Source: an uncultured Pseudomonadales bacterium (GTDB lineage: Bacteria; Pseudomonadota; Gammaproteobacteria; Pseudomonadales; Azotimanducaceae). From it: a stretch of DNA of 46,546 bases. The notes beneath the pieces were generated by a model, which was not told the DNA's origin, searched no databases, and saw only the letters and a list, made by a program, of their open reading frames with translations. Each line of letters begins with the position of its first letter. The first letter of the stretch is position 1. Location of the stretch: positions 1 to 46,546 of the forward strand of contig CALIKQ010000062.1 in assembly GCA_938017975.1 (NCBI GenBank). The letters run 5' to 3'. This document shows, one piece after another, positions 8,381 to 42,318 of this stretch. The position numbers and the translations under genes were made by a program.

Positions 8381-8442
8381 CTGAGTAAGATGCGGTTTGA
8401 AAGGCTGATATGCCCGCGCGGCGCAAAGAGAAGGAGCAAGGA

Positions 8443-10185
8443 ATGTCAGGTCAGGGTCTAAGCCAACCTGATCCAGCAACGATGTTCTGCCTCGTGCGCG
8501 ACCCACTTGATCGGCATTGGCTTCAACTCGATCGGCCGTTGACGGTTTTGACCGCTTCAACCTCTGACGAACTCGATACATTGATGGTAGAAATCGAGTC
8601 GGCGGCTGGTGAGGGGAACATAGTAGCGGGGTACATCGCTTATGAGGCCGCCCAAGCGTTTGATCCAGGTCTGAGCGTTCATAAAAGTTCCTCGCCGCTG
8701 GCTATATTTGGCGTTTTTGACCATTGGGAAGTGCTCAAGACGCTGCCGGTCGTGCGCCCCGGTATCGTTGACGTGCGCCCGGATATCTCAGAAGGAGATT
8801 ACCTTGTAAGGATCGATAAGATAAAAAGATGGCTCCAAGGCGGGGAGAGCTATCAGGTGAATTTCACCCATCCCTTATTGGGTACTTATTTTGGTGATCC
8901 CCTCGACGTTTTCGCGCAACTCTACGATGCTCAACCAACGCCCTATGCGACCTATTTGGCCTTTGAGGAACAGGTGGTTGCCTCTGTGTCTCCGGAGCTC
9001 TTTTTTAAGCTTGAGGGTGACGTTATTTCAATGGAGCCAATGAAAGGCACTGCGCCCAGGGGTTTAAGTCCAGAGGCTGATGCTGAAAACGAGCAAATGC
9101 TCCGAACATCGCTTAAAGATCAAGCCGAAAACCTAATGATTGTAGACATGATCCGCAACGATCTTGGCAGAATCGCGCTCCCCGGCTCTATTAAAGTGAC
9201 TGAACTTTTTAAGTTGCAAGCGCTGCCTACAGTGTGGCAACAAACATCCACCATCACAGCCGATACAAAGGCCGGTCTGCAAGAGATTTTGAAAGCACTA
9301 TTCCCCTGCGCTTCGATCACTGGCGCCCCCAAACACCGTACGATGGAAATTATTAATGAGCTAGAATCGAGACCGCGTGGGGTCTATACCGGTGCGATTG
9401 GAGTGCTCCATGGACCTCGCTCGATGCGATTCAGTGTCGGTATTCGAACCCTTACATTATCTGCTGACGGCCGGGCTGAATTTGGTGTTGGAAGTGGGGT
9501 TGTGTGGGAGTCAACTGGACCGGGTGAGTGGCAAGAGAGTTTAGATAAAGCAAAAGTGCTTGAGGCCTTAAAGCCGCCTGAATTAATTGAGACCATGCGT
9601 TTCGACCCGGGTGCCGGTGTTTCGCTCTGGCCGCTTCACCTCGCGCGATTAGCGCGTTCTAGCCAAGTTTTTCAATACCCTTTTGATCCTCTGCAGGCGG
9701 CTAAGATGGTTGGCGCGATTGAATCCTCAGCCGCCCAAAGGCTTCGCCTTAAGCTCTCAAGTGAGGGTGAGTTGACCCTTGAATCTGGTCCTCTGCCGGA
9801 TGTTCAGTCGGTTGTGAGGCTTGCAGTCGCAATGCAACCGGTGCACAGCCAGGGCATGTACCTGCGCCATAAGTCGACTCGTCGAGAAATTTACTCGGCA
9901 AGGATGGGTGCTCGCCCAGACGTTGACGACGTCGTGCTTTTTAACGAACGCGGCGAGATCACTGAAACCTGCATTTACAATGTTTATCTGGTCTTTGGTG
10001 ATCAGTGGTTTACGCCAGCGCTGAAGTCTGGATTATTACCGGGGGTTTATAGACAAGACCTGATTGACCAAGGTCGCGTCACAGCCAGGGTGCTCCGTCT
10101 TGCCGATCTCTACGAAGCGGATCAAATCTTCGTTTCCAACGCAGTCCGTGGACTCATCGCTGCGGAACTGATCCTCCCCGTTTAA
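8443..10185 (+). CDS. pabBC: Aminodeoxychorismate synthase component I fused to aminodeoxychorismate lyase
   Basis: A 580-residue fusion. Residues up to about 375 form a chorismate-binding PabB domain with PMKGTAPRG, whose Lys is the residue that marks aminodeoxychorismate rather than anthranilate synthases, plus IVDMIRNDLGR, FPCASITGAPK and GVGSGVVWES. The remaining ~200 residues are a class IV aminotransferase-fold PabC domain (FNERGEITETCIYNVYLV, TPALKSGLLPGVYR) that would release pyruvate to give 4-aminobenzoate for folate. A glutamine amidotransferase (PabA) is needed and is not in this window. AAGGAG is six bases before the ATG at 8443; an in-frame ATG at 8410 lacks such a site. The start faces the flagellar-rod-like gene divergently. 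Confidence 0.9.
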   Translation: MSGQGLSQPDPATMFCLVRDPLDRHWLQLDRPLTVLTASTSDELDTLMVEIESAAGEGNIVAGYIAYEAAQAFDPGLSVHKSSSPLAIFGVFDHWEVLKTLPVVRPGIVDVRPDISEGDYLVRIDKIKRWLQGGESYQVNFTHPLLGTYFGDPLDVFAQLYDAQPTPYATYLAFEEQVVASVSPELFFKLEGDVISMEPMKGTAPRGLSPEADAENEQMLRTSLKDQAENLMIVDMIRNDLGRIALPGSIKVTELFKLQALPTVWQQTSTITADTKAGLQEILKALFPCASITGAPKHRTMEIINELESRPRGVYTGAIGVLHGPRSMRFSVGIRTLTLSADGRAEFGVGSGVVWESTGPGEWQESLDKAKVLEALKPPELIETMRFDPGAGVSLWPLHLARLARSSQVFQYPFDPLQAAKMVGAIESSAAQRLRLKLSSEGELTLESGPLPDVQSVVRLAVAMQPVHSQGMYLRHKSTRREIYSARMGARPDVDDVVLFNERGEITETCIYNVYLVFGDQWFTPALKSGLLPGVYRQDLIDQGRVTARVLRLADLYEADQIFVSNAVRGLIAAELILPV

Positions 10186-16104: not shown

Positions 16105-16163
16105 TCACAAGGGACTAAGCTGCCAAATAGGTTAATTTCTTTAACGCTTTGCGAGTAACTAAA

Positions 16164-18116
16164 ATGACTCAAACGAACTCTGCTTATTTACCCGGCGACG
16201 ATGCGACGCTTTTAGCCGCCTTACAAGATGTGAACACCCCAAACCTATTATTGGTGTTGGCGACGGTTACCGGCGACGACAAATGGCTCAAAGCGCCGTA
16301 TCTGCCAGCCCCCATTGTGGCGCCTGAAGGCAGTTTGTTTCCGGATGACACTGGCGGCTTTAGCGAAGCATTGGTCGCTGAGATTCATGAGGCCGCGATC
16401 CGCATTTTAGGTGAGGTCAGAGATGGTCATCGGCCGTTGGGGATGGCACCGGATGTCGAGCGATTCCAGAGGATGTTGTCGATTTCAACTGCTGAACCCG
16501 TGGATTTGGGTACGGCAAAGATGCTGATGGAGGAGACGCGATTTACTGATCGCGATGTTCATTGGCAGCCGGCGCTGGAGGCGGCGCTCCAAGAAGCATC
16601 GACCCAAGATTTTCATGTCGTGATCGTGGGTGCCGGTATGTCGGGTCTCGGCACTGCAGCCAAGTTAAAACAGGCAGGGGTCCCCTTTACGTTGCTTGAA
16701 AAAAACGATGCCGTTGGAGGGACTTGGTATGAGAATCGTTACCCTGACTGTGGTGTAGATACGCCGAATCATTTTTATTCGTATTCTTTCCATCGAAACC
16801 CTGAATGGTCGGGCTATTTTTCCAAGCGTGATGAGCTCCATGCGTATTTTGAAGATTGTGCCGATGCCTTTGGCGTGCGTGACCATATAAAACTCAGTTG
16901 CTCGGTTCAAAAGATGGTGTTTGATCAAACGTTGGGTAAATGGCGTGTCTTCTATCAAGATGAATCAGGTCAATGCCATGAAATTGAAGCGCAGGCCGTG
17001 GTGAGTGCCGTTGGGCAATTGAATCGTCCCGCCATGCCAGACCTTGAGGGACTGTCCTCATTCGGCGGTAAAATGTGGCACTCTGCGAGATGGCAGGATG
17101 AGGATCTGACGGGCAAACGGGTGGGTGTGATCGGTACGGGATGCAGCAGTGTTCAATTGCTGCCCAAGACGGCCGAGAGAGCAGGCCACACCACTGTGTT
17201 CCAGCGCACGCCGCATTGGGTGGCGCCTGCCAGAGATTATTACAAGCCAGTCGAGCCTGGGTTGATTTGGGCTCTCAAACACATTCCTTTTTACGCAGAG
17301 TTTCATCGAGCGCGAATGATTTTGGTGTTTGGTGATCGCTCTTGGCCAGCGGTTGTGTCGGATCCAGACTGGGTGGATCAATCAGTATCGGTAAATGAAG
17401 CCAATCACGTGATGCGAGAGACGCTCATCGGGTTTATTCGCGAGGGGCTCGGTTCGAAGCAGGCGTATGCAGAAGATTGCATCCCGGATTTTCCGGTCTG
17501 GGGTAAGCGGTTGATTGTCGATAACGGATGGTACGAGACACTGGCGCGTGAGGACGTGACCTTGGTACCAAGAGGGATAGAGCGGGTGACTGCGACTGGT
17601 GTCGTAACCAACGACGGAGTCCATCATGATCTTGATATTCTGATTTTGGCTACAGGGTTTAAGTCTAATGAATTATTGTCACCGATCGAGGTTCTAGGGC
17701 TTGAAGGCCAAAGTTTGACCGAGGTTTGGGGTGATGCTGCAAATGCCTATAAAGGCACCGTTGTTCCAGGGTTTCCGAATTTATTTTGCTTGTATGGACC
17801 CAATACCAATATCGTGCACGGGGGCAGCATCATTTATCAAATCGAATGCCAAATTCACTACATGATGCAGTGCCTGGCTCTGATTGCTTCTGAGGAAGTA
17901 CTGATCAATGTACGAGATTCAGTTAACGCCAAATACAACCGCGAGGTTCAAGCTCTGAGTCGGCAACTTGCGTGGGGGCATCCCAATGTCGAAAGTTGGT
18001 ATAAAAATCAGGCCGGTCAGGTTGTTAACAATTCTCCTTTCAGCTTGCAAAAATTTTGGGAGGAAACTCACGACCTGAATCCTGCAGATTTTGATCTGAT
18101 CGAGGTCTCGCTTTAA
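16164..18116 (+). CDS. Baeyer-Villiger flavin monooxygenase, HAPMO-like with N-terminal extension
   Basis: 650 residues from the ATG at 16164 (a TTG at 16149 is the only upstream alternative). After about 150 helical residues comes VVIVGAGMSGLG (FAD), then VGGTWYENRYPDCGVD, the type I BVMO fingerprint FGGKMWHSARW (FxGxxxHxxxW), and GVIGTGCSSVQ (NADPH), ending with ATGFKSN and FPNLFCLYGPNTN. An N-terminal extension of this size is characteristic of 4-hydroxyacetophenone monooxygenase and relatives, where it helps dimerisation. The enzyme inserts oxygen next to a ketone to give an ester or lactone. The natural ketone is unknown. It ends three bases from the opposing LysE gene. Confidence 0.88.
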   Translation: MTQTNSAYLPGDDATLLAALQDVNTPNLLLVLATVTGDDKWLKAPYLPAPIVAPEGSLFPDDTGGFSEALVAEIHEAAIRILGEVRDGHRPLGMAPDVERFQRMLSISTAEPVDLGTAKMLMEETRFTDRDVHWQPALEAALQEASTQDFHVVIVGAGMSGLGTAAKLKQAGVPFTLLEKNDAVGGTWYENRYPDCGVDTPNHFYSYSFHRNPEWSGYFSKRDELHAYFEDCADAFGVRDHIKLSCSVQKMVFDQTLGKWRVFYQDESGQCHEIEAQAVVSAVGQLNRPAMPDLEGLSSFGGKMWHSARWQDEDLTGKRVGVIGTGCSSVQLLPKTAERAGHTTVFQRTPHWVAPARDYYKPVEPGLIWALKHIPFYAEFHRARMILVFGDRSWPAVVSDPDWVDQSVSVNEANHVMRETLIGFIREGLGSKQAYAEDCIPDFPVWGKRLIVDNGWYETLAREDVTLVPRGIERVTATGVVTNDGVHHDLDILILATGFKSNELLSPIEVLGLEGQSLTEVWGDAANAYKGTVVPGFPNLFCLYGPNTNIVHGGSIIYQIECQIHYMMQCLALIASEEVLINVRDSVNAKYNREVQALSRQLAWGHPNVESWYKNQAGQVVNNSPFSLQKFWEETHDLNPADFDLIEVSL

Positions 18117-18776: not shown

Positions 18777-21700
18777 CTAAGCGATCGCCACATCTTTAAG
18801 AAGGCATTTGGCGGGGATCATCACTGTGATCGAACGGAGCGTTGATTGTCTTGCAAACAGGGCCTGACTAAGCTCGTCGGGCAAGGTTTCGCCGGCGATG
18901 GTCAAATCCTGCCCGGACCGATCAGTCATGATGATGCAGGCGTCACCATGGGTGAGCTGATACGTAATGGGTATCTGGCACCAGGTAAAAGCGAGACTTT
19001 GTGGTGCTAGCTCAATGGTTTCCCAGCGTTGATCAATTGAGAAATATCTAAAATTCGCTGCTTCGCTTAAAAATTCATCGGCGCGCAGTAGGCTGGGTTG
19101 AAAAGAGACTCGACCAGAGTCAATGCGCAAGCCTAATTCGCCAAAGCGGGTCAAGATTTCTTCTTTAACCTGACCGGTCATTCCCGGTTGTTGGGCGCCA
19201 GCGTGCAGTGGTGTATGCGAATAGGGATCGGTAGGGAAAGCGCCGAACTCTTCTGGCGTTTTGTTGAAGCCGATTCCTGCTCTGATTCGATAATAATATT
19301 GTGCGAGCCGCGCAAGGACTGCGGGTTCTGCACCGCTGTCAAGCGCGTTGAAGTAGGTTTCTTGGACAGCAAGAAGCAATTTTCCGATCATATGCCAGTA
19401 GACACACCCAAGGCCTTCAAAGCTGAACATGCCGCCGGATCGGCCAGTAAATGCATGATGATTGAAAACGGATTCGTACAACACATGGATGGTTTGAACT
19501 TCTTGGTTGACATCACTGATGTCGTATTCCGGCAGAACTTGGCTGAGAATTTGATCGAGGACATCCCGATTGGTGCAGTCGGCGTGGAACCGCAATCGAT
19601 CTGAACTCTCTGGCGCAATCAATCGATAATCATTGGCGGCAAGCATTTGACTGAACAGTGCAATTGAGTCTGCCTCTGAACGCGGGAAATGGTTTTTATC
19701 AAGAAAGCTTGTCAAGGCTCTATCAGGATAGAGCATGAAGGTCTGCTGATCCTCTCGATACATGTCACTGTCGAACAATGCCGAAAGCAGTTCGATAGAT
19801 TCTTCTGGCGATAGAGATTGAGCGCTGAGCGCGGAAACCTGACCTTCAAGCATCGGGTAAAGCGTATCGACTTGTGCTTGATCGCCCACAGCATTTAGTA
19901 GGTTATAGGTATGATAGAGTCGATCACGCCTTCGATTATTGGTAAGCGTGCCGTCAAAAATTTGAACTGCGTTTTCTAGGAGACTGTCGATTTCAGCGTA
20001 TTGAAACGGCGCTTGCTCCAAATCGGTCGCTTGGTAGATGACTGAGCGGTACTCGCTTGCTGCGTTGCCTAGGGCCGCCATGAAATCATAGCGCTGTTGT
20101 GGGTTTATGGGCCCTTGATTGAGCGAATGCACAATCTCTTTGAGAATGTTGCTGGTGCGTTCGAGCCATTGTCCGACGGGAATCGTTAAATTGAAGGAAT
20201 CTTGGTGATCCGTAATCAATGACCGCAGGAATTGACTGTATCGCCTGAGGTAACTGAGGGTTACCAGTGACAGCCCTGATCCCACCAATGCATTGTTACC
20301 GTCATTCCATTCGGGTCTCTGGGTGTTCAGCCAGATGCCACCGTCGACAACCAGATTAGAGATTTTGGTCAAAAGCGGAACCAAAAGTTTCTCGAGTAAT
20401 GTGGCCTGATAGACTTCGCCGCTATTGGTCAGCCAGAGTTTTCCATCAGCGCCAAGTCTTTCGACCTCGCGATCTATCTGAACTGCCAATTCAGCATCGA
20501 AAATCACCGTATCTTTAGGATCTTTAACAATCTCGTTAAAGGGCTTTATGCGGTAGGGTACATTGGCATAAGCAAAGGTGGACTGCTTGAGCATTGAGGC
20601 GAGCTTGCCCGGGTGAAAAGCATTAGACAGTTCGAGAAACTTAAGCAAATAAATGATCTGATGATCACCCCAGTAGCCGATGTAGCTCCAAGGATCTTCA
20701 ATGTCTTCGATTTCCCAATCGATGCCTTCGTGCGTGACCCTGTAGGGATTGTAGCCATCCAAGGTTGATGCATTTACGAATTTGGCGATCATATGCTCGA
20801 TGAATTCAGGAAAGCTGAAAGATAAGGCTTCCCAGTTTTGGAAAATGTCGCGCCAGTTGCCGGCATAAGCGAGTAGCCGCCTACCATTCTCCTCTTTTAT
20901 CTTGATCTCAAAATGGTTCCAGGGTCGAGAGGGGTCGCCATGACGTCGACCAAAGGAGATCGGTAGATATTCTTGTGCCAAGCGCTGCAATTGCTTGCTG
21001 CCTTTGGTGTCGACAATGGCCATGAGCTCGGCTCGACTGAGAGTTTCTGAACAATCTTGGAGCAGTGTTTCAGCCTCAAGCACCAGCGGCCTGTTAAAAG
21101 TTTTGAGCGAAGTCAGAAAGTCCGACTTATGGATCATGTATTGATCGATCAGAGTGCCGCCACGCATGATGTTGAACAAGGCATTCGCGTAGTGGTGGGT
21201 CGTCACCTTCTCGTCAGTGCTGCGCTGTAAGCCGTCGCTGCCGGCGACTAATTCGGCGAGCGCCTGTTGGCCCTGCTCGATATCTTCTTGGATTGTCTTT
21301 TCGAAGGCGTCGGTCTTGCTTAAGCGAGTTTGAAGTGCTTGAACCTGTTGCTGAGTCAATTGAACGTCGGCAATGGTCGCCCACTCCGCGGGCTCATTGG
21401 GACGGACGGTGATCGATGCCTGTGAGAAGTAGAGCCCCCTGACACCTCGCGTGCTCAGCACTTGCTGGACCGACTCGCCCGCCAAAAATTGATCGACCTG
21501 CTGTTGCGAGATCAGAGGGACAGAGTTGGTTAACCCTACATTAAAGACCGTGTTCGCGCGCAGAGACTCATTGGCTTGCGCTCGATCTGAGATGGCTGAA
21601 TAAAGCGAAAAGGTCGCAAGGCCGGTTGGCAAATCCAACTCGCTCCGCTTGTATGCATCAACCAGATTGCTCGACGTCTCTTGAAGCGTTCGGGGCGTAT

Positions 21701-22253
21701 TGGCAGGCAGAATATTTTGGATCCCGCTAATCAGGTCGAGCGTAACGGGTGTTCGGCCCTGATTGATCAGTGTCGAACTTGCCACAAAACCAAACTGCTC
21801 GCTGGTCGTCCAGGTTAGGCGATAGGTGAGGTTTAGGTCGTGACGCGTTTCCTCGAAGCAAATTCGAGAACCGAGCAGGTTTTTATAAATGTTTCTACTG
21901 CATTGACCTTGCCAAGGACTTCGATGAAAAAAAGGCGCCCAAAGCTGGCTCTGACCGCCGGTGCCAACTTTGAGATAAGTGAGCGCGCCGGTGTGCTGAT
22001 TGCTTTCGTGGATTTTATCTACAGGAAGATATGGAAACAGCGCAAACTCCGGTGCGACCCGGCCGGCGGTGAGGCCGGTTGTTGAAGAAATGAAGAGCCA
22101 GTGGTCGTCTCGCGATGCGAGACTGACGAAAAATGGTGAGAGAGAATCTATGTCTCGGATGAGGTAGTGCCGCTCTCCATCAAGAGAGACAAACTCTTCG
22201 GATTCGTTGAAGGTCTCAGCGTTATGTATCTTCAGTTGTGGCATGAAACGCAT
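18777..22253 (-). CDS. Very large glycoside-phosphorylase-like protein (divergent GH94/GH149/GH161 type)
   Basis: 1158 residues, no signal peptide, so cytoplasmic. By eye the order of elements follows the GH94 group: a beta-rich N-terminal third (to about 330), then an (alpha/alpha)6-like region in which NWRDIFQN (466-473) matches the FRDSNQD element of cellobiose phosphorylase, DPWSYIGYWGDHQ (520-532) matches its DDPLWL region, and RPEWNDGNNAL (646-656) matches RADWNDCLN, whose second Asp is catalytic, here Asp651. Near the end FTGRSGGMFSFEGLG and HAGAQQPGMTG are candidates for phosphate or sugar contacts. I therefore infer phosphorolysis of an oligosaccharide to a sugar 1-phosphate. The family name is a guess; it may be a new one. 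It is divergent from the LacI-glycosidase operon. Confidence 0.6.
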   Translation of the reverse strand: MRFMPQLKIHNAETFNESEEFVSLDGERHYLIRDIDSLSPFFVSLASRDDHWLFISSTTGLTAGRVAPEFALFPYLPVDKIHESNQHTGALTYLKVGTGGQSQLWAPFFHRSPWQGQCSRNIYKNLLGSRICFEETRHDLNLTYRLTWTTSEQFGFVASSTLINQGRTPVTLDLISGIQNILPANTPRTLQETSSNLVDAYKRSELDLPTGLATFSLYSAISDRAQANESLRANTVFNVGLTNSVPLISQQQVDQFLAGESVQQVLSTRGVRGLYFSQASITVRPNEPAEWATIADVQLTQQQVQALQTRLSKTDAFEKTIQEDIEQGQQALAELVAGSDGLQRSTDEKVTTHHYANALFNIMRGGTLIDQYMIHKSDFLTSLKTFNRPLVLEAETLLQDCSETLSRAELMAIVDTKGSKQLQRLAQEYLPISFGRRHGDPSRPWNHFEIKIKEENGRRLLAYAGNWRDIFQNWEALSFSFPEFIEHMIAKFVNASTLDGYNPYRVTHEGIDWEIEDIEDPWSYIGYWGDHQIIYLLKFLELSNAFHPGKLASMLKQSTFAYANVPYRIKPFNEIVKDPKDTVIFDAELAVQIDREVERLGADGKLWLTNSGEVYQATLLEKLLVPLLTKISNLVVDGGIWLNTQRPEWNDGNNALVGSGLSLVTLSYLRRYSQFLRSLITDHQDSFNLTIPVGQWLERTSNILKEIVHSLNQGPINPQQRYDFMAALGNAASEYRSVIYQATDLEQAPFQYAEIDSLLENAVQIFDGTLTNNRRRDRLYHTYNLLNAVGDQAQVDTLYPMLEGQVSALSAQSLSPEESIELLSALFDSDMYREDQQTFMLYPDRALTSFLDKNHFPRSEADSIALFSQMLAANDYRLIAPESSDRLRFHADCTNRDVLDQILSQVLPEYDISDVNQEVQTIHVLYESVFNHHAFTGRSGGMFSFEGLGCVYWHMIGKLLLAVQETYFNALDSGAEPAVLARLAQYYYRIRAGIGFNKTPEEFGAFPTDPYSHTPLHAGAQQPGMTGQVKEEILTRFGELGLRIDSGRVSFQPSLLRADEFLSEAANFRYFSIDQRWETIELAPQSLAFTWCQIPITYQLTHGDACIIMTDRSGQDLTIAGETLPDELSQALFARQSTLRSITVMIPAKCLLKDVAIA

Positions 22254-22673
22254 CCGTCATGGTTCTACACAAATCCGATTTCGGCGGATTAGAACGGCTC
22301 TTGGCTCCCCAGCAAAAATTTGAAAAACAAATCTAAACGTGGGGCGGCGCTTAGGGCAGAGCCCTCTGATCAGGTGTTCTGGTCAGGACCATGGCGATGA
22401 AATCTCAGGCGCGCAGGACTGTCAACGTCAAATGCGCTGAAGTGGGTGACCTGTGAGTGCAACTGGGCGAATGCGTTTTGGCACGCGCGAAAGCAAGCCA
22501 TGACGAGGTTAAGTCGGTCGTTAAGCCCAGATTGTTCATTTCAGTGATGTGGACTTTGAAGGGGCTTTAGAACGCCGTTTGTGGTCAGCCGCCGGTGTCC
22601 TTTCGGGCAAGTTTAGCAACGCTTACCCGCCGCTCGTCGTTCTCAATCGCCGAATTTGGTAGCAGTCCATTCA

Positions 22674-22702
22674 TTGACCCTGTAACAGGAGGATGAAATA
22701 AT
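22674..22702 (+). promoter_or_regulatory. Promoter of the lacI-type/glycosidase operon
   Basis: TTGACC (22674-22679), a 17-base spacer and AATAAT (22697-22702) make a good sigma70 promoter directed at the LacI gene. The operator palindrome begins at the last base of the -10 box, the classic position for repression by blocking RNA polymerase. The leader would be about 240 bases long. Confidence 0.6.
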
Positions 22703-22715
22703 GACAACGTTGTCA
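22702..22715. promoter_or_regulatory. LacI-family operator, perfect palindrome
   Basis: TGACAACGTTGTCA is a perfect 14-bp inverted repeat with the central CG step that LacI/GalR-family proteins kink on binding. It touches the -10 box of the promoter in front of the LacI-type gene, so the regulator probably represses its own operon. I found no second perfect copy in the intergenic region. Confidence 0.7.
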
Positions 22716-22951
22716 AAACTAGGGGCTGGCTGTTCTTCGCGATAGCGGCCCAGCCGCTAGTGAGCGATGGCGCTTTCTCAATAGAAGTCCTCAGCTTGAC
22801 TAGGGTCAGACTGCATGGTGGAAAAAATCACGAAAGCGATAGCCCTCAGAGTGCTTGCAACGAAAGGCGAGATTTTCAGACTAATTTGGTCCAAAGTGTC
22901 TCTCATCAGACTGACGACTCGGTTAGATGCTCGACGAGAAACGAATATGCC

Positions 22952-24022
22952 ATGAATAGCCAAGCGACTCCTCATCCTCAACCCAAGCCAAAAGCGCCCA
23001 CCATATTCGATGTGGCTAAGCTCGCGGGCGTTTCGATTAAAACGGTCTCCCGGGTTATCAATCTGGAAAGCAATGTTCGACCTTCTACCCGGGAGAAGGT
23101 CGAAGCGGCTGTTGAAGCCCTTGATTATCGTCCTAACGCGGCCGCCCGGGTGCTCTCAGGAAAACGCTTTTATGTCATCGGGCTCATCTACGAGAACCCG
23201 AATGAATTTAGCTATATGCAAAAAGTGTTAAATGGCGCCCTGAAGGCTTGTGAGGCAGGGGGGTACACGTTGTTATTGCTGCCGTTAACCCTGCCTAACC
23301 CAGATTTGATTGACGACGTGCAGCGCTTTGTCTCTCAATCTCGGCTAGATGGCGTTGTATTGCCTGCACCCCTTGGTGACTTTTCTGAAATCCAGCGGCT
23401 CCTCAACGAATTGGAGATACCCTTTGCTAGGATAACTCCGAAAACCGGTGCCGAAGATGATCTCAGTGTCCAGTGTCATGATGAGCAAGCAAGCTTTGAT
23501 GTCACACAGTTTTTAATCGAGCAAGGTCATCGCCGGTTGGGCTTTATCAAGGGGGACCCGATTCATGGAGCGACCGAGCATCGATATCGTGGTTATATCC
23601 GCGCGCTTCAGGTTGCAGGTATTGGTTTACGCAGTGAGTTCGTTCGAGACGGGATGTTTAGCTTTGAGTCTGGCAAAACGGCGGCAAGAGCACTCCTCGA
23701 TCTGCGTGAGCCACCAACGGCCATTGTTGCTAGTAACGATGATATGGCTGCCGGCACAATATTTGAAGCTCGGGAGCGTGGACTCAGTATCCCCGGCGAT
23801 TTATCCGTTGTTGGATTTGATGATACACCGATTGCCTCGCATATCTGGCCGCCGCTTACGACAGTCCGTCAACCCATTGTAGAGATGGCAGAGTCGGTTA
23901 CGAGTCTGTTGATTCGTAAACTCAAGGGCGAGCAGGTTGAACCACTTGATCAGCCTTTTGCCTGTCACGTCGTCACGCGCGCTTCAACGGGAGAAAGGGC
24001 GGTACAAGATGATCTGGAATAA
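22952..24022 (+). CDS. LacI/GalR-family transcriptional regulator
   Basis: 356 residues from the ATG at 22952. Residues about 15-70 form the HTH and hinge (TIFDVAKLAGVSIKTVSRVIN, then STREKVEAAVEALDYRPNAAARVLSG), and the rest is the periplasmic-binding-like effector domain ending with VSVVGFDDTPIASHIWPPLTTVRQP, the family signature. (Motif shown in part: positions 16-36.) It should sense a sugar or sugar phosphate and release its operator. An in-frame GTG at 22760 would add an unrelated N-terminus and is rejected. The stop overlaps the next gene by 14 bases, so regulator and glycosidase are translated from one message. Confidence 0.9.
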   Translation: MNSQATPHPQPKPKAPTIFDVAKLAGVSIKTVSRVINLESNVRPSTREKVEAAVEALDYRPNAAARVLSGKRFYVIGLIYENPNEFSYMQKVLNGALKACEAGGYTLLLLPLTLPNPDLIDDVQRFVSQSRLDGVVLPAPLGDFSEIQRLLNELEIPFARITPKTGAEDDLSVQCHDEQASFDVTQFLIEQGHRRLGFIKGDPIHGATEHRYRGYIRALQVAGIGLRSEFVRDGMFSFESGKTAARALLDLREPPTAIVASNDDMAAGTIFEARERGLSIPGDLSVVGFDDTPIASHIWPPLTTVRQPIVEMAESVTSLLIRKLKGEQVEPLDQPFACHVVTRASTGERAVQDDLE

Positions 24023-25385
24023 TGCTTGTTTTCAACAGGGGCATAAATCGCGGGTTTCGAGCCTATTTGCGATCGCTGGTCGATGGTTCCAGCGGGCCAG
24101 GTTTGGGTCGATCTTGTTGGTCGCTCCCTTCGGAATAAGCTTGGTTGGTTGTGATCAGGTAAAAATTGGCCTCGAGGGTCCGAGTCAGGTTCAAATCGTC
24201 GGTCAATCCGGTCGATATCAAATGCTGCGAAACGGTGTGGCTTATCGTCCGGTGGGGGCTGGGTCAGTCCCTGGCGAACTGGAGAGCTTGAAAGCACACG
24301 GTGCAAACTCGATTCGTACCTGGCATGTCGGAGACGGCCGTATTCTGGATGAAGCCCACGCTCTGGGGCTGACCGTTTCTTTATGTCTTGATGTGGGGCG
24401 AGAGCGATTGGGGTTTGATTACGATGATGCCGATGCCGTTTCCCGGCAGTTGGAAGGGTTTCGTCAAACCGTGCGAGGAGTAAAAGATCACCCAGCGCTG
24501 CTAACTTGGATTATTGGCAATGAGCTGAATATTGAATCGACCAATCCAAAGGTGTGGGATGCGGTCAACGATATAGCACTCATGATTAAGGCGGAGGATC
24601 CAAACCACCCCGTGACCACAGCGCTTGCTGGGCTTGGGTTAAAGGAGGTGCGATACCTCAAACAAAGGGCGCCGGCGCTTGATTTTATTAGCGCTCAGGT
24701 TTACGGCGGCATCGGTGGTCTCGCTCAAGCTATGGATCGCGTCGGACTCGATAAGCCACTGATGGTCACTGAGTGGGGCACGAAAGGGCATTGGGAAACA
24801 CCATCGACGCAATGGGGCGCGCCTCTTGAGCTGAGCAGCGCGCTCAAGGCGGAGCATTACATCTCTGGTTATCAGCAAGTTCTGGTTCCAAATGCAGAAC
24901 GCATTATTGGCTCCTACGCGTTCTTGTGGGGACAAAAGCAAGAACGAACGCCGACTTGGTATGGAACCCTGACGCCATCGGGGCATCGGACAGAGGCTGC
25001 GGACGCGCTCTATTTCTTATGGCAAGGCCGTTGGCCCGACAATCGGGCACCTCGCGTGTCAGAGTTAACGGTCAACGGGCGCAGGCCCGAGTCGAGCCTG
25101 CGCGTGCAGGCCGGCCAAAGGCTTGAGGCAAAAGTAAAGGTTTTAGACAGAGAAGCAGACCGACTTACCTTGACCTGGGTCGTTCGTCCTGAGAGTCAAG
25201 CTAAGCAGGTTGGAGGCGATCTCGAGCGCGTACCGCCAGTAATACCGGATCTTTTGAAAACGGTTGAAGGTGCGCGAGCAGTCTTATCAGCGCCGGCTGA
25301 ACCTGGGGCTTATCGATTGTTCGTGCATGTTGAAGATGCAGCCAGCGGCGTTGGACATGCTAATTTCCCGTTTTACGTGCGTTGA
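24009..25385 (+). CDS. Lipoprotein glycoside hydrolase of clan GH-A with C-terminal Ig-like domain
   Basis: 458 residues from the ATG at 24009, inside the end of the LacI gene. A long signal ends in the lipobox LVGC, Cys48; Asp follows the Cys, which in E. coli keeps lipoproteins in the inner membrane. The TIM barrel shows GANSIRTW, WIIGNELN with the acid/base Glu172, and VTEWG with the nucleophile Glu255, the spacing expected of clan GH-A. SYAFLWGQKQE lies near the barrel end. From about 360 a beta-rich Ig-like domain follows. The arrangement recalls GH2-like TIM-barrel proteins and GH158 beta-1,3-glucanases; which family applies is uncertain. It would trim oligosaccharides in the periplasm before uptake. 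Confidence 0.75.
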   Translation: MIWNNACFQQGHKSRVSSLFAIAGRWFQRARFGSILLVAPFGISLVGCDQVKIGLEGPSQVQIVGQSGRYQMLRNGVAYRPVGAGSVPGELESLKAHGANSIRTWHVGDGRILDEAHALGLTVSLCLDVGRERLGFDYDDADAVSRQLEGFRQTVRGVKDHPALLTWIIGNELNIESTNPKVWDAVNDIALMIKAEDPNHPVTTALAGLGLKEVRYLKQRAPALDFISAQVYGGIGGLAQAMDRVGLDKPLMVTEWGTKGHWETPSTQWGAPLELSSALKAEHYISGYQQVLVPNAERIIGSYAFLWGQKQERTPTWYGTLTPSGHRTEAADALYFLWQGRWPDNRAPRVSELTVNGRRPESSLRVQAGQRLEAKVKVLDREADRLTLTWVVRPESQAKQVGGDLERVPPVIPDLLKTVEGARAVLSAPAEPGAYRLFVHVEDAASGVGHANFPFYVR

Positions 25386-25529
25386 GTGGCGAGCATTAGC
25401 CTCGGGGTTTGATTTGATCCATTCGGGCGGGAAGGAGAAGATGGATGCGCGTAAAACAGAAAGGTGGTGCGTGCAGCACCTCGATAAACGATTTTGAAGA
25501 ACGGTAGAACAGCTAGAACGGGCGTTGCG

Positions 25530-26486
25530 ATGAACAAATTAGAACAACTTAAATCGATGACAGATGTTGTCGCTGACACGGGAGACATCGAGGCGATCGC
25601 GCGTTATCAACCGATTGATGCCACCACAAATCCCTCACTGCTGTTGAAGGCCGCGGGAATGAGTCAATACGCGCATTATTTAGATTCGGCCCGCACTGTC
25701 GCACGCCGGGCCTCCGATCAGCAATCGGTTTGCTTGCAGCAGGCTTGCCGCCAGTTTGCCGTGGACATTGGCTGCGAAATTTTGAGCTTGATCCCAGGCC
25801 GTGTTTCATCTGAAGTCGATGCTCGACTTTCATTTGATACCGATCAGACGGTTGCTCAGGCCATGCGGCTGATCGAAGCGTTTGATGATCGCGGCATCTC
25901 GTCGGATCGAATCCTGATAAAGATTGCGAGTACCTGGGAAGGCATCGAAGCTGCGCGCCAACTTGAGCGTAAGGGTATCCAATGCAATCTCACACTGCTC
26001 TTTGGTTTTGCCCAGGCCGCCGCCTGCGCGGATGCTGGGGTTTATTTGATCTCTCCTTTTGTTGGAAGAATACTCGACTGGTACCGCGCCAAGACCGGCG
26101 AGGCCTACTCGAGTGAAACCGATCCCGGAGTTGTCTCGGTACGTCGAATTTATCGTTATTACAAAGCTGAGCGGTACCAGACTGTGGTAATGGGCGCGAG
26201 TTTTAGAAATACAGGAGAGATCGAAGCCTTGGCAGGGTGTGATCGTTTGACGATCAGCCCGGAGCTGCTGAAGGCTTTAGAGGAGGATGGGGGACAGTTA
26301 GCGCGAAAACTTAAACCGGATGGTCACAGTGATGATCGCCGCGCAGTTCAGAGTGAGGGATCATTCCGTTGGGCGCTTAATGAGGACCCGATGGCAACTG
26401 AGAAGCTCGCTGAGGGGATCCGAAATTTTGCGGCGGACCAAGTCAAGCTTGAACAGTTGCTCTTGCAGGGTTCCGAACCCGCTTGA
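25530..26486 (+). CDS. tal: Transaldolase
   Basis: 318 residues from the ATG at 25530, close to the length of E. coli Tal[16 protein letters not shown] (28-42) opens the barrel, VSSEVDAR carries Glu95, and [12 protein letters not shown] holds Lys131, which forms the Schiff base with dihydroxyacetone; [19 protein letters not shown] and [11 protein letters not shown] follow. It transfers a three-carbon unit between sedoheptulose 7-phosphate and glyceraldehyde 3-phosphate in the pentose phosphate pathway. It lies 144 bases after the glycosidase on the same strand and may be part of the LacI-controlled operon, which would connect incoming sugar to central metabolism. The ribosome-binding site is weak. 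Confidence 0.9.
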
Positions 26487-38897: not shown

Positions 38898-39830
38898 ATG
38901 GATATTATTCCGCTCAGCGACAATACATTCGGTGCTGAAATCAAGGGCCTTGATCTTAACCATCTTAGCGACAGTGATTTCTCTGCGCTCTATGAAATAT
39001 TTCTGACTTATGGGTTCTTTTTAATCAGGGGTCAGCTTTTGGATGAAAGTCAGCAGATCGATTTTGGGAAAAGATTTGGTGCGCTTGAATTTGGTGCCTT
39101 GCCGTTAGCCAACCAGATCAAAAAACCCGACGGGGCCTATACGGATGTTTTCGCGGAGGATAGCCACCGTATGCTGGTTAATCGCGGTAATGAGGCATGG
39201 CATACCGACTCGACCTACTGGCCTGTGAGTAGTAAATGCGCAATGCTCACCGCGGTCAAGGTGCCGGCTCATGGCGGCGAGACAGAACTGGCTGATAGCC
39301 GAGCAGCCTATGCTTGTTTGCCAGAGTCGCTTCGCGTCCGCGCCGAAGGCCGCTCCGCTTATCACTCAACGCAGTATTCACAGGCCAATGATCTTGGGCA
39401 CTTCCCGGAACAAAAAGTGGATACGCTGTATCATGGCGAGGCTTACTTGCGGCCCCTAATCAAGGTTCATCCTGAGACAGGCGTGCCTTGCTTGATGGTC
39501 GGTAGGCATGCATTTGGAGTGCCCGGGTTGGATCGGGCGGACAGCCGGGACTTGATCGAATCATTGACCGAATTCGTGGTTAGTGATGCCTCGAGGGTCT
39601 ATACCCACCATTGGGAAGTTGGAGATACACTGGTCTGGGACAATCGTGCACTGTTGCACCGGGCGAGACCCTATGATTATCGAGAGCCCCGGGTGCTTAT
39701 CGGGACTCGGATCAAGGGCGATGTTCCCTCTGAGTTAGCTTACTATCCTGATGATCCAATGGCTGAAGCAGGTCGGGCTGCGCTTGCTAACGAATTGGCT
39801 TGTCTCAAAGCTGAGGTGATACCGGCCTAA
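38898..39830 (+). CDS. TauD/TfdA-family 2-oxoglutarate dioxygenase
   Basis: A complete 310-residue family member. The facial triad is AWHTDSTYWP (HxD, about residues 98-100) and the distal His in LLHRARPYDYREPR, whose Arg binds 2-oxoglutarate. LIKVHPETGVPCLMVGRHA and DTLVWDNRALLH match TfdA-type (2,4-D-like) enzymes more than TauD. It hydroxylates a small acid with loss of succinate and CO2; the product of an ether or sulfonate substrate would fall apart. It is followed tail to tail by ychJ with a four-base overlap. The truncated gene at the left edge belongs to the same family. Confidence 0.88.
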   Translation: MDIIPLSDNTFGAEIKGLDLNHLSDSDFSALYEIFLTYGFFLIRGQLLDESQQIDFGKRFGALEFGALPLANQIKKPDGAYTDVFAEDSHRMLVNRGNEAWHTDSTYWPVSSKCAMLTAVKVPAHGGETELADSRAAYACLPESLRVRAEGRSAYHSTQYSQANDLGHFPEQKVDTLYHGEAYLRPLIKVHPETGVPCLMVGRHAFGVPGLDRADSRDLIESLTEFVVSDASRVYTHHWEVGDTLVWDNRALLHRARPYDYREPRVLIGTRIKGDVPSELAYYPDDPMAEAGRAALANELACLKAEVIPA

Positions 39831-40494: not shown

Positions 40495-42318
40495 TTATTG
40501 AAGTTCCAGTCCATTGAGACCACCATCCTCACGCCACTCGCGTAGCAACTTCATATAAGCACCTACGCCCTTGCTATAGGTTTCGCGACGCACATTACGG
40601 TATCTCTTGGTGGTCCCTTCCTGATTGTAGTAGCCCGGTGTGCAGGTGTCTGGCGACCCTCCCAGGACAAAGCCTGAACCTTTGGTCTCGAGTTGATCGG
40701 CGATCCAGCGCTCCTCGGCTTCGTTAGAAACATTTGCGGATTTGATTCCTCGGCTCGCCAATTCGCTGATTGTGTAGGCTACGTGTCCGGCTTGTACATC
40801 AATGCCGTGGGCGTAGTTGGCGCCGAGCTGAAAGACAAAACCGCCGCCGCATAAGAATAGGTTGGGAAACCCGCTGACCATTAATCCATGCATGGTGCGC
40901 ATGCCATCTTGCCAATGATCGTATATCGATTGTCCCTCAATACCGAAAACCGGTATGCCAAGTCGCCGCTCGTAACTTGAGGTGATCTCAAACCCGCTGG
41001 CGTAAACGATGCAGTCGACCGGATACTCCTTGCCGTTGGCTACGATAGCGCTCTCCGTGATTGCTTCGACGCCCTGTGTTGCGCTGACATCAACCAGCTC
41101 AACGTTGGTTCGATTGAATGTGTCGAGATAATAGTCGTTGAAAGTTGGGCGTTTACAGAATTGGTTGTAATAAGCCTTTAATTTTTCTGCCACCTCCGGG
41201 TCCTTTACCGCGTCGTCAACCAGTCCTCTGATGTCTTCCATCGTTTTAAAATCAGCCATCTGGACCAAACCGGGTGCTTTACCTTCTACTTGGCTGGCCA
41301 TTGCCTTCAAGTTCCGCGTGAGCCGTGTCCAACCATCGTCCACAAAGGCTGGGTCAATCGGACCACCTAAAAATGCTTCGCCAAATTTCTTCTGTCGCTC
41401 TTTTTGCCAACCGGGCTTGAGGTTTTTTGCCCACTCTGGATCGGTCTCAGCGTTGTTGCGCAGGTCTACTGACGATGGTGTGCGCTGAAAAACATAGAGT
41501 TGCTTTGCGCTCTTGCCCAGTGCGGGTACACACTGGACGGCGGTGGCACCCGTGCCAATAATCGCGACGTTTTTGTCCTTCAGTCCCGTGAGATTGCCTT
41601 CTGGGCCACCACCCGTGTAATCGTAGTCCCAGCGACAGGTATGAAACGAGTGGCCTTTGAAGGATTCAACGCCGGGGATGCCGGGCAGGCGTGGTCGGTT
41701 TGCAGGCCCTGTGCCAAGGCAGACATGACGGGCACGCATTTCATCGCCCCGGTTGGTTGAAACAAGCCACATGGCTTCGTCCTCAAGCCAACGTAATTCT
41801 GTCACCCAGGTTTGAAACACAGCATCCTTGTAGAGGTTGAAATGTTGACCAATCCTTTGGGCATGTTCATAAATTTCAGACGCATAGGAAAACCGTAGCT
41901 TGGGCACGTAGCCAGTCTCTTCCAGCAAGGGTAAGTAGCTATAAGATTCAATATCGCATTGCGCACCAGGATAGCGATTCCAGTACCAGGTTCCACCAAA
42001 ATCACCACCGCTCTCTACAATGCGAACATCGCGAACGCCGGCCTGAATTAATCGCGCCGCGGTGAGCATGCCGACCCACCCGCCCCCGATGACGATCACT
42101 TCTCGCTTATCCTTGAGCGGTGACCGAGTCTCAGGCTCACAGTAGGGATCTTCCTCTAGATATTTGTTGGCAAATGGCGAATCGTGAGAAAGCTGCACGA
42201 ACTGCGCTTCGGCATCTGGGCGGACGCGTTTCTCGCGCTCAAGGGCATAACGTTTAGCAAGAGCATCCGGGTCAAAGCCAAGTTTCTCTCGAGACAGAGG
42301 ATTATCCGTGGCTGCCAT
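40495..42318 (-). CDS. Baeyer-Villiger flavin monooxygenase (cyclohexanone/steroid type)
   Basis: 607 residues. VIVIGGGWVGMLTAARL binds FAD, FGGTWYWNRYPGAQCDIESYSY follows (about residues 107-128), the fingerprint FKGHSFHTCRWDY fits FxGxxxHxxxW, AIIGTGATAVQ binds NADPH and YASGFEITSSYE ends the FAD domain. This layout, without the long N-terminal domain of the other monooxygenase, matches the cyclohexanone, phenylacetone and steroid monooxygenase branch. It would turn a cyclic or steroid ketone into a lactone or ester. The SDR gene 91 bases upstream on the same strand would supply the ketone by oxidising an alcohol. Confidence 0.9.
   Translation of the reverse strand: MAATDNPLSREKLGFDPDALAKRYALEREKRVRPDAEAQFVQLSHDSPFANKYLEEDPYCEPETRSPLKDKREVIVIGGGWVGMLTAARLIQAGVRDVRIVESGGDFGGTWYWNRYPGAQCDIESYSYLPLLEETGYVPKLRFSYASEIYEHAQRIGQHFNLYKDAVFQTWVTELRWLEDEAMWLVSTNRGDEMRARHVCLGTGPANRPRLPGIPGVESFKGHSFHTCRWDYDYTGGGPEGNLTGLKDKNVAIIGTGATAVQCVPALGKSAKQLYVFQRTPSSVDLRNNAETDPEWAKNLKPGWQKERQKKFGEAFLGGPIDPAFVDDGWTRLTRNLKAMASQVEGKAPGLVQMADFKTMEDIRGLVDDAVKDPEVAEKLKAYYNQFCKRPTFNDYYLDTFNRTNVELVDVSATQGVEAITESAIVANGKEYPVDCIVYASGFEITSSYERRLGIPVFGIEGQSIYDHWQDGMRTMHGLMVSGFPNLFLCGGGFVFQLGANYAHGIDVQAGHVAYTISELASRGIKSANVSNEAEERWIADQLETKGSGFVLGGSPDTCTPGYYNQEGTTKRYRNVRRETYSKGVGAYMKLLREWREDGGLNGLELQ

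Follow-up and report, generated by a model that had tools for sequence, protein, structure and literature searches.

Introduction

Family GH149 was established in 2018, and passages of the founding report describe proteobacterial clusters in which it occurs with a LacI regulator or a TonB receptor (PMC5827456). Gammaproteobacterial laminarin loci, some of them with GH158, appear in bloom metatranscriptomes according to parts of PMC10108472, and the laminarin-locus families of Woeseiaceae include GH149 and GH158 in the portion of PMC12175321 that bears on them. Here I describe a related locus in an uncultured bacterium of the Pseudomonadales (Azotimanducaceae), presumably of marine origin. The window, that is, the whole stretch of 46,546 nucleotides analysed, is the entire contig C62 of a 3.19 Mb assembly in 79 contigs, and the locus comprises the gene for a protein of 1158 residues divergent from those for a LacI-family regulator, a lipoprotein glycosidase and a transaldolase. 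It very probably serves the utilisation of beta-1,3-glucan (laminarin-type) by GH149 phosphorolysis, repressed by LacI together with a TonB-receptor operon elsewhere in the genome. Family membership, catalytic residues, a conserved operator and the genes that accompany this operator are the data that back this reading.

The locus itself is ordinary, in that the combination of GH149 and GH158 has already been published for laminarin loci of Gammaproteobacteria. In the excerpts of PMC5827456 that describe gene clusters, type I joins GH149 with LacI and type II joins it with a TonB-dependent receptor and other GH genes; unlike these, the window has GH158 but neither an ABC transporter nor a receptor, the receptor operon lying on another contig with the same operator. 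The variant-1 laminarin loci of SAR92, Luminiphilus and SAR86 have GH149 in their GH list, "sometimes with an additional GH158", but the text of PMC10108472 places sigma-factor regulators on the flanks of the SAR92 loci, whereas the locus described here has LacI and dispersed genes. Of the solved enzymes, Pro_7066 (6hq6, 6hq8) aligns with the 1158-residue protein over nearly its full length and has the same WND, RD and His residues, but differs in source, regulator and neighbours. The lipoprotein shares its fold and catalytic pair with BuGH158 (6pal; PMC7157763) and GH158(Pro) (9oro, 9p26), although the locus of BuGH158, as far as parts of that paper describe it, is of the SusC/D kind, contains GH16 and GH3 and lacks a phosphorylase. 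Among the titles and abstracts listed in searches of open-licence literature, I recognised no LacI regulon joining dispersed genes of the GH149/GH158 type.

A GH149 phosphorylase beside a GH158 glucanase

Judged by its sequence, the 1158-residue protein is an ordinary GH149 member and not a new family. It scores 1561.3 bits over residues 18-1146 against the NCBIfam equivalog NF058639.1 (GH149 1,3-beta-D-glucan phosphorylase; cut-off 1150), and 1011.6 bits against the solved GH149 enzyme Pro_7066 (PDB 6hq6), with residues 19-1146 aligned. Other families of the clan are much weaker in the PDB search (GH161 chains, 40.4 bits; GH94 laminaribiose phosphorylase, E 0.38), and Pfam gives no match up to E 0.01. 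A preliminary description of this DNA had recognised a phosphorylase of clan GH-Q and named GH149 among the possible families, and in this it was right; it had also called the protein unclassified, of low overall similarity and possibly the first of a new family, which the NCBIfam and PDB assignments, with only Pfam silent, overturn.

For Pro_7066, passages of PMC6771811 name W651-N652-D653 (D653 being the predicted catalytic residue), R470-D471 and H959. In the alignment, for which the chain numbering offset of 19 was counted by hand, these correspond to W649, N650, D651, R468, D469 and H954 of the window protein. The three motifs reported earlier are in place (starting at residues 466, 520 and 646), and Asp651, the Asp of WND, does occupy the catalytic position, matching Asp653 of Pro_7066. 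A MAFFT alignment of the window protein with 80 named loci shows no variation at any of these six positions (81 of 81 sequences); the loci are the best 80 of at least 569 relatives, and many of them have flanks cut by contig ends. At the position of Gly652 in the window protein, 77 of the 81 sequences have Ala. Foldseek, given a weak AlphaFold2 model (8 rows, pLDDT 64.4), returned 6hq6 first (E 4.9e-81, 41% identity, TM 0.48), then GH161, then GH94; because the model is weak, the assignment of the GH149 fold rests on homology.

In what follows, G labels denote genomes of a family set of 150, L labels locus stretches and C labels contigs. In the closest named relative of the GH149 gene (L030:3747-7220, 82%), from a metagenome assembly, codon 595 of the match is an in-frame stop, which makes it either a pseudogene or an assembly error.

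On sequence and modelled structure the GH-A lipoprotein is a member of GH158, the endo-beta-1,3-glucanase family. The PDB search gave 295.7 bits to GH158(Pro) 9oro and 197.1 bits to BuGH158 6pal, and the AlphaFold2 model (14 rows, pLDDT 80.6), a TIM barrel with an Ig-like domain, matches 9p26 with TM 0.81/0.91 and rmsd 2.5. The acid/base and nucleophile Glu and the Asn preceding the first Glu are all present; all 14 sequences in the alignment (the window's included) keep N171, E172 and E255, which correspond to N136, E137 and E220 of BuGH158, residues whose mutation abolished activity according to the relevant part of PMC7157763. A lipobox Cys, checked by eye, is found in seven of nine copies (eight same-genus genomes and L030), the copies without it being those of G071 and G051. 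Since the GH149 and GH158 families are both there, the locus is of laminarin type.

A conserved predicted operator shared with a receptor operon

The gap between GH149 and LacI (698 bp, measured from ATG 22952) holds one clearly conserved block, consisting of TTGACC, 17-18 nt, AATAAT and then TGACA[A/G]CG[T/C]TGTCA. The last of these is the predicted LacI operator, TGACANCGNTGTCA, which overlaps the promoter between LacI and GH149. LacI-family operators are usually even palindromes with a central CG, as stated in parts of PMC4052901; the predicted operator has this form and stands near its presumed targets, and the regulator carries both the helix-turn-helix domain PF00356 and the sugar-binding-like domain PF13377. 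Operator and TTGACC occur in all nine copies, and AATAAT at 17-18 nt in eight, being absent from G051. A promoter scan of 22240-22960 finds TTGACC-N17-AATAAT and nothing else, shuffled sequence giving an expectation of 0.4, and the operator matches the window only once at up to two mismatches. The LacI control that had been proposed for this locus thus finds a conserved predicted operator.

In the organism's own genome the exact pattern is found in the window, on C48 and at one further place, where the ends of C21 and C78 overlap. At the C21/C78 place a second copy with one mismatch stands 33 bp away, and the operon on C21 encodes a TonB-dependent receptor (TIGR01782, 603.7 bits) and, behind it, two tryptophan-halogenase-like proteins on either side of SapC and cupin_8. 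An uptake system elsewhere in the genome had been anticipated, and this operon, with its identical operator, is the candidate. Sites with one mismatch number 17 beside four exact ones, the reversed-pattern control giving three in all. Two of the 17 are readings, one on each contig end, of the tandem copy at the receptor operon; of the other 15, 13 were examined and rejected as regulon members (12 inside open reading frames (ORFs), one between them), and C51:55353 and C77:23621 were left out of inspection. A LytTR response regulator opens C78, divergent from the receptor operon, with the tandem LacI-type operators between them (L129:787-8817, L130:201-1130).

The 11 same-genus genomes together gave 34 exact hits (33 distinct sites), and the reversed pattern gave two. 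From maps, coordinates and Pfam, 31 of the 33 precede beta-1,3-glucan or sugar-uptake genes. GH149/LacI has 10 of them, at 8 places, and the receptor operon 12, at 7 places, of which that in G135 (C213) was assigned from coordinates only; five precede GH81, two GH30 (a fragment in G087), one GH3 and one an MFS_2 sugar transporter. The two unlinked sites are that on C48 and one in G022 (C67), by a Tex gene. The regulation does not require GH149, for the operator precedes GH81 in G127 and G148, both of which have no GH149, and in G148 it stands before the receptor and GH3 as well. Outside the genus, the four sites of G006 belong to the receptor (two), GH3 and GH16; the sites of G001, G005 and G008 were left out of inspection. 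Among the 80 named GH149 loci, 11 contain the exact motif and none the reversed one.

From this distribution I lean towards LacI as the genus's master regulator for the use of beta-1,3-glucan, acting through TGACANCGNTGTCA on GH149, GH158, GH81, GH30, GH3, the sugar MFS transporter and the TonB-receptor operon with its two tryptophan-halogenase-like genes, SapC and cupin. One contig of G148 (L161, on C7) brings together the receptor operon, LytTR, a GH17 (6fcg, 506.8 bits), a LacI 62% identical, GH3 and the same operator. In G087 the TonB receptor is in two pieces (L172:3613-6677) and GH30 is a fragment (L173:4014-4928), by decay or sequencing error.

Conservation of the neighbourhood

GH149 was found in 9 of the 150 family genomes, namely 8 of the 11 same-genus genomes listed (the own genome included) and G089 of another genus, where GH16-like and TonB-receptor-like genes, named by sequence, accompany it. 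All eight same-genus genomes with GH149 also have GH158, and none of the three without GH149 has it; nor was it found in any of the seven genomes tested from other genera, which included G089. In six same-genus genomes the stretch is collinear, unrelated flanking genes too, so collinearity says little on function, and genus-level conservation of the neighbourhood was mostly set aside as functional proof. The informative parts are the operator, the named loci and G051, in which the flanks differ yet LacI, GH158 and GH149 are retained, with GH3 between LacI and GH158, and no transaldolase was found on the GH149 contig.

The preliminary description called for a survey of co-occurrence in other genomes. 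LacI homologues (E 1e-10 or better) lie near GH149 in 31 of the 80 named loci, and GH158 above 200 bits, within the available flank, in 17 (two of these, L031 and L037, being contigs already counted as G071 and G051), with three further weak matches below 75 bits; transaldolase is near GH149 in two, both close kin.

Features of the window

The gene layout is as first placed. For LacI, the ATG start is likelier than the listed GTG, which adds 64 residues, and for the lipoprotein the likelier start is the ATG that overlaps the LacI 3' end, with the lipobox Cys at residue 48. Pfam and NCBIfam agree on the identities of LacI and transaldolase.

Table 1. Features of the GH149 locus, in window coordinates.
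Feature	Position	Strand	Basis
GH149 1,3-beta-glucan phosphorylase, 1158 aa; Asp651, R468, D469, W649, N650, H954	18777..22253	-	NCBIfam NF058639.1, PDB 6hq6
Sigma-70-like promoter TTGACC-N17-AATAAT, pointing to LacI	22674..22702	+	promoter scan and conservation
Predicted LacI operator TGACAACGTTGTCA	22702..22715	strand-neutral	conservation in aligned gaps, genus survey
LacI-family regulator, ATG start (ORF begins GTG 22760)	22952..24022	+	PF00356, PF13377
GH158 (endo-beta-1,3-glucanase family) lipoprotein, 458 aa; Asn171, Glu172, Glu255	24009..25385	+	PDB 9oro, 6pal; fold
Transaldolase, following GH158 on the same strand; probably a housekeeping gene	25494..26486	+	TIGR00874, 461 bits (cut-off 396.2)

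Elsewhere the window encodes a Baeyer-Villiger-type flavin monooxygenase like PtlE (40495-42318; 612.8 bits, cut-off 1100), a TauD-like dioxygenase (38898-39830) and a second flavin monooxygenase (16149-18116). A single ORF of 591 aa (8410-10185) encodes a PabB-like protein whose second domain matches PRK07546 models.

Proposed pathway and alternatives

The cellular substrate, the direction of the reaction, repression, its inducer and the carriage of this glucan by the receptor are deduced from these data, as follows. GH158, anchored as a lipoprotein, would cut beta-1,3-glucan outside the inner membrane, and the TonB receptor, brought into the scheme by the shared operator, would move glucan across the outer membrane. 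Oligosaccharides would then reach the cytoplasm via some inner-membrane carrier, and GH149 would use phosphate to split off glucose 1-phosphate and leave the chain one unit shorter, by a GH94-like mechanism with Asp651 as the catalytic acid. LacI bound to the operator beside the -10 element would repress both the divergent genes and the distant TonB-dependent-receptor operon, and would be released once a glucan product is present.

Several points weigh against this scheme. The GH149 model is too weak for testing the (alpha/alpha)6 barrel with two extra domains that marks the family, and G089 is without GH158 despite having GH149. Of the three exact sites in the own genome, that on C48 looks like a chance match, lying 723 bp ahead of an SDR gene. 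In the own genome, the scanned stretches contain no site with one mismatch or fewer for GH81 (C30), for GH3 (on C41, next to an MFS_2 gene), for the two GH16 genes or for the two GH17-like genes, and extension of the operator regulon to them is unsupported. Finally, in the count of 31 linked sites "before" means within about 1.6 kb, a limit set after the maps were seen, and G087 has a NUDIX ORF between.

That the large protein is the first of a new phosphorylase family, or acts on something other than beta-1,3-glucan, is scarcely credible. The silence of Pfam speaks for it and by itself would have misled, but the GH149 equivalog cut-off is exceeded by 411 bits, and on this match, the alignment with 6hq6 and the identical active-site residues I reject a new family; GH158 is moreover the neighbour. 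Another question is which glucan is used. Neither GH149 nor GH158 reveals its source, GH81 in five same-genus genomes and GH16 in G006 likewise have the operator before them, and a solved GH158(Pro) was, by its structure title, soaked with a mixed-linkage oligosaccharide. A mixed-linkage beta-1,3/1,4-glucan or a curdlan- or callose-like glucan as the true substrate is nevertheless unlikely: passages of PMC7157763 put the preference of BuGH158 for laminarin, relative to mixed-linkage glucan and curdlan, at about two orders of magnitude. The reaction is reversible, as noted in part of PMC5827456, and the phosphorylase might run synthetically and build beta-1,3-glucan from glucose 1-phosphate; there is very little chance of this, however, since a hydrolase shares the conserved operator region with GH149, and elsewhere in the genus this operator is found before an outer-membrane receptor and further hydrolases.

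Degradation of beta-1,3-glucan by GH149 and GH158 remains my preferred reading, and what is left to weigh is the transaldolase, which the preliminary description took for a dedicated part of the pathway, feeding the product into the pentose phosphate pathway. It does lie 108 bp behind GH158 on the same strand, and is adjacent in seven of the eight same-genus GH149 genomes, but unrelated flanking genes are equally collinear in six of those. Of 12 genomes searched, 11 have a single copy, including G127 and G148 without GH149, and G022 showed none; in G051 it is on a different contig from GH149, and the two named loci that have it nearby are the close kin mentioned above. A dedicated role is thus quite improbable, the proposed link to the pentose phosphate pathway is weak, and the transaldolase is probably a housekeeping gene outside the pathway.

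These results remove a false lead, in that there is no new phosphorylase family at this locus. The predicted operator provides a testable route to laminarin genes that are scattered rather than clustered in a genome. If the LacI regulon is true, halogenase-like genes of unknown purpose would become part of laminarin uptake, which offers a physiological setting for the halogenase-like genes behind the TonB receptor.

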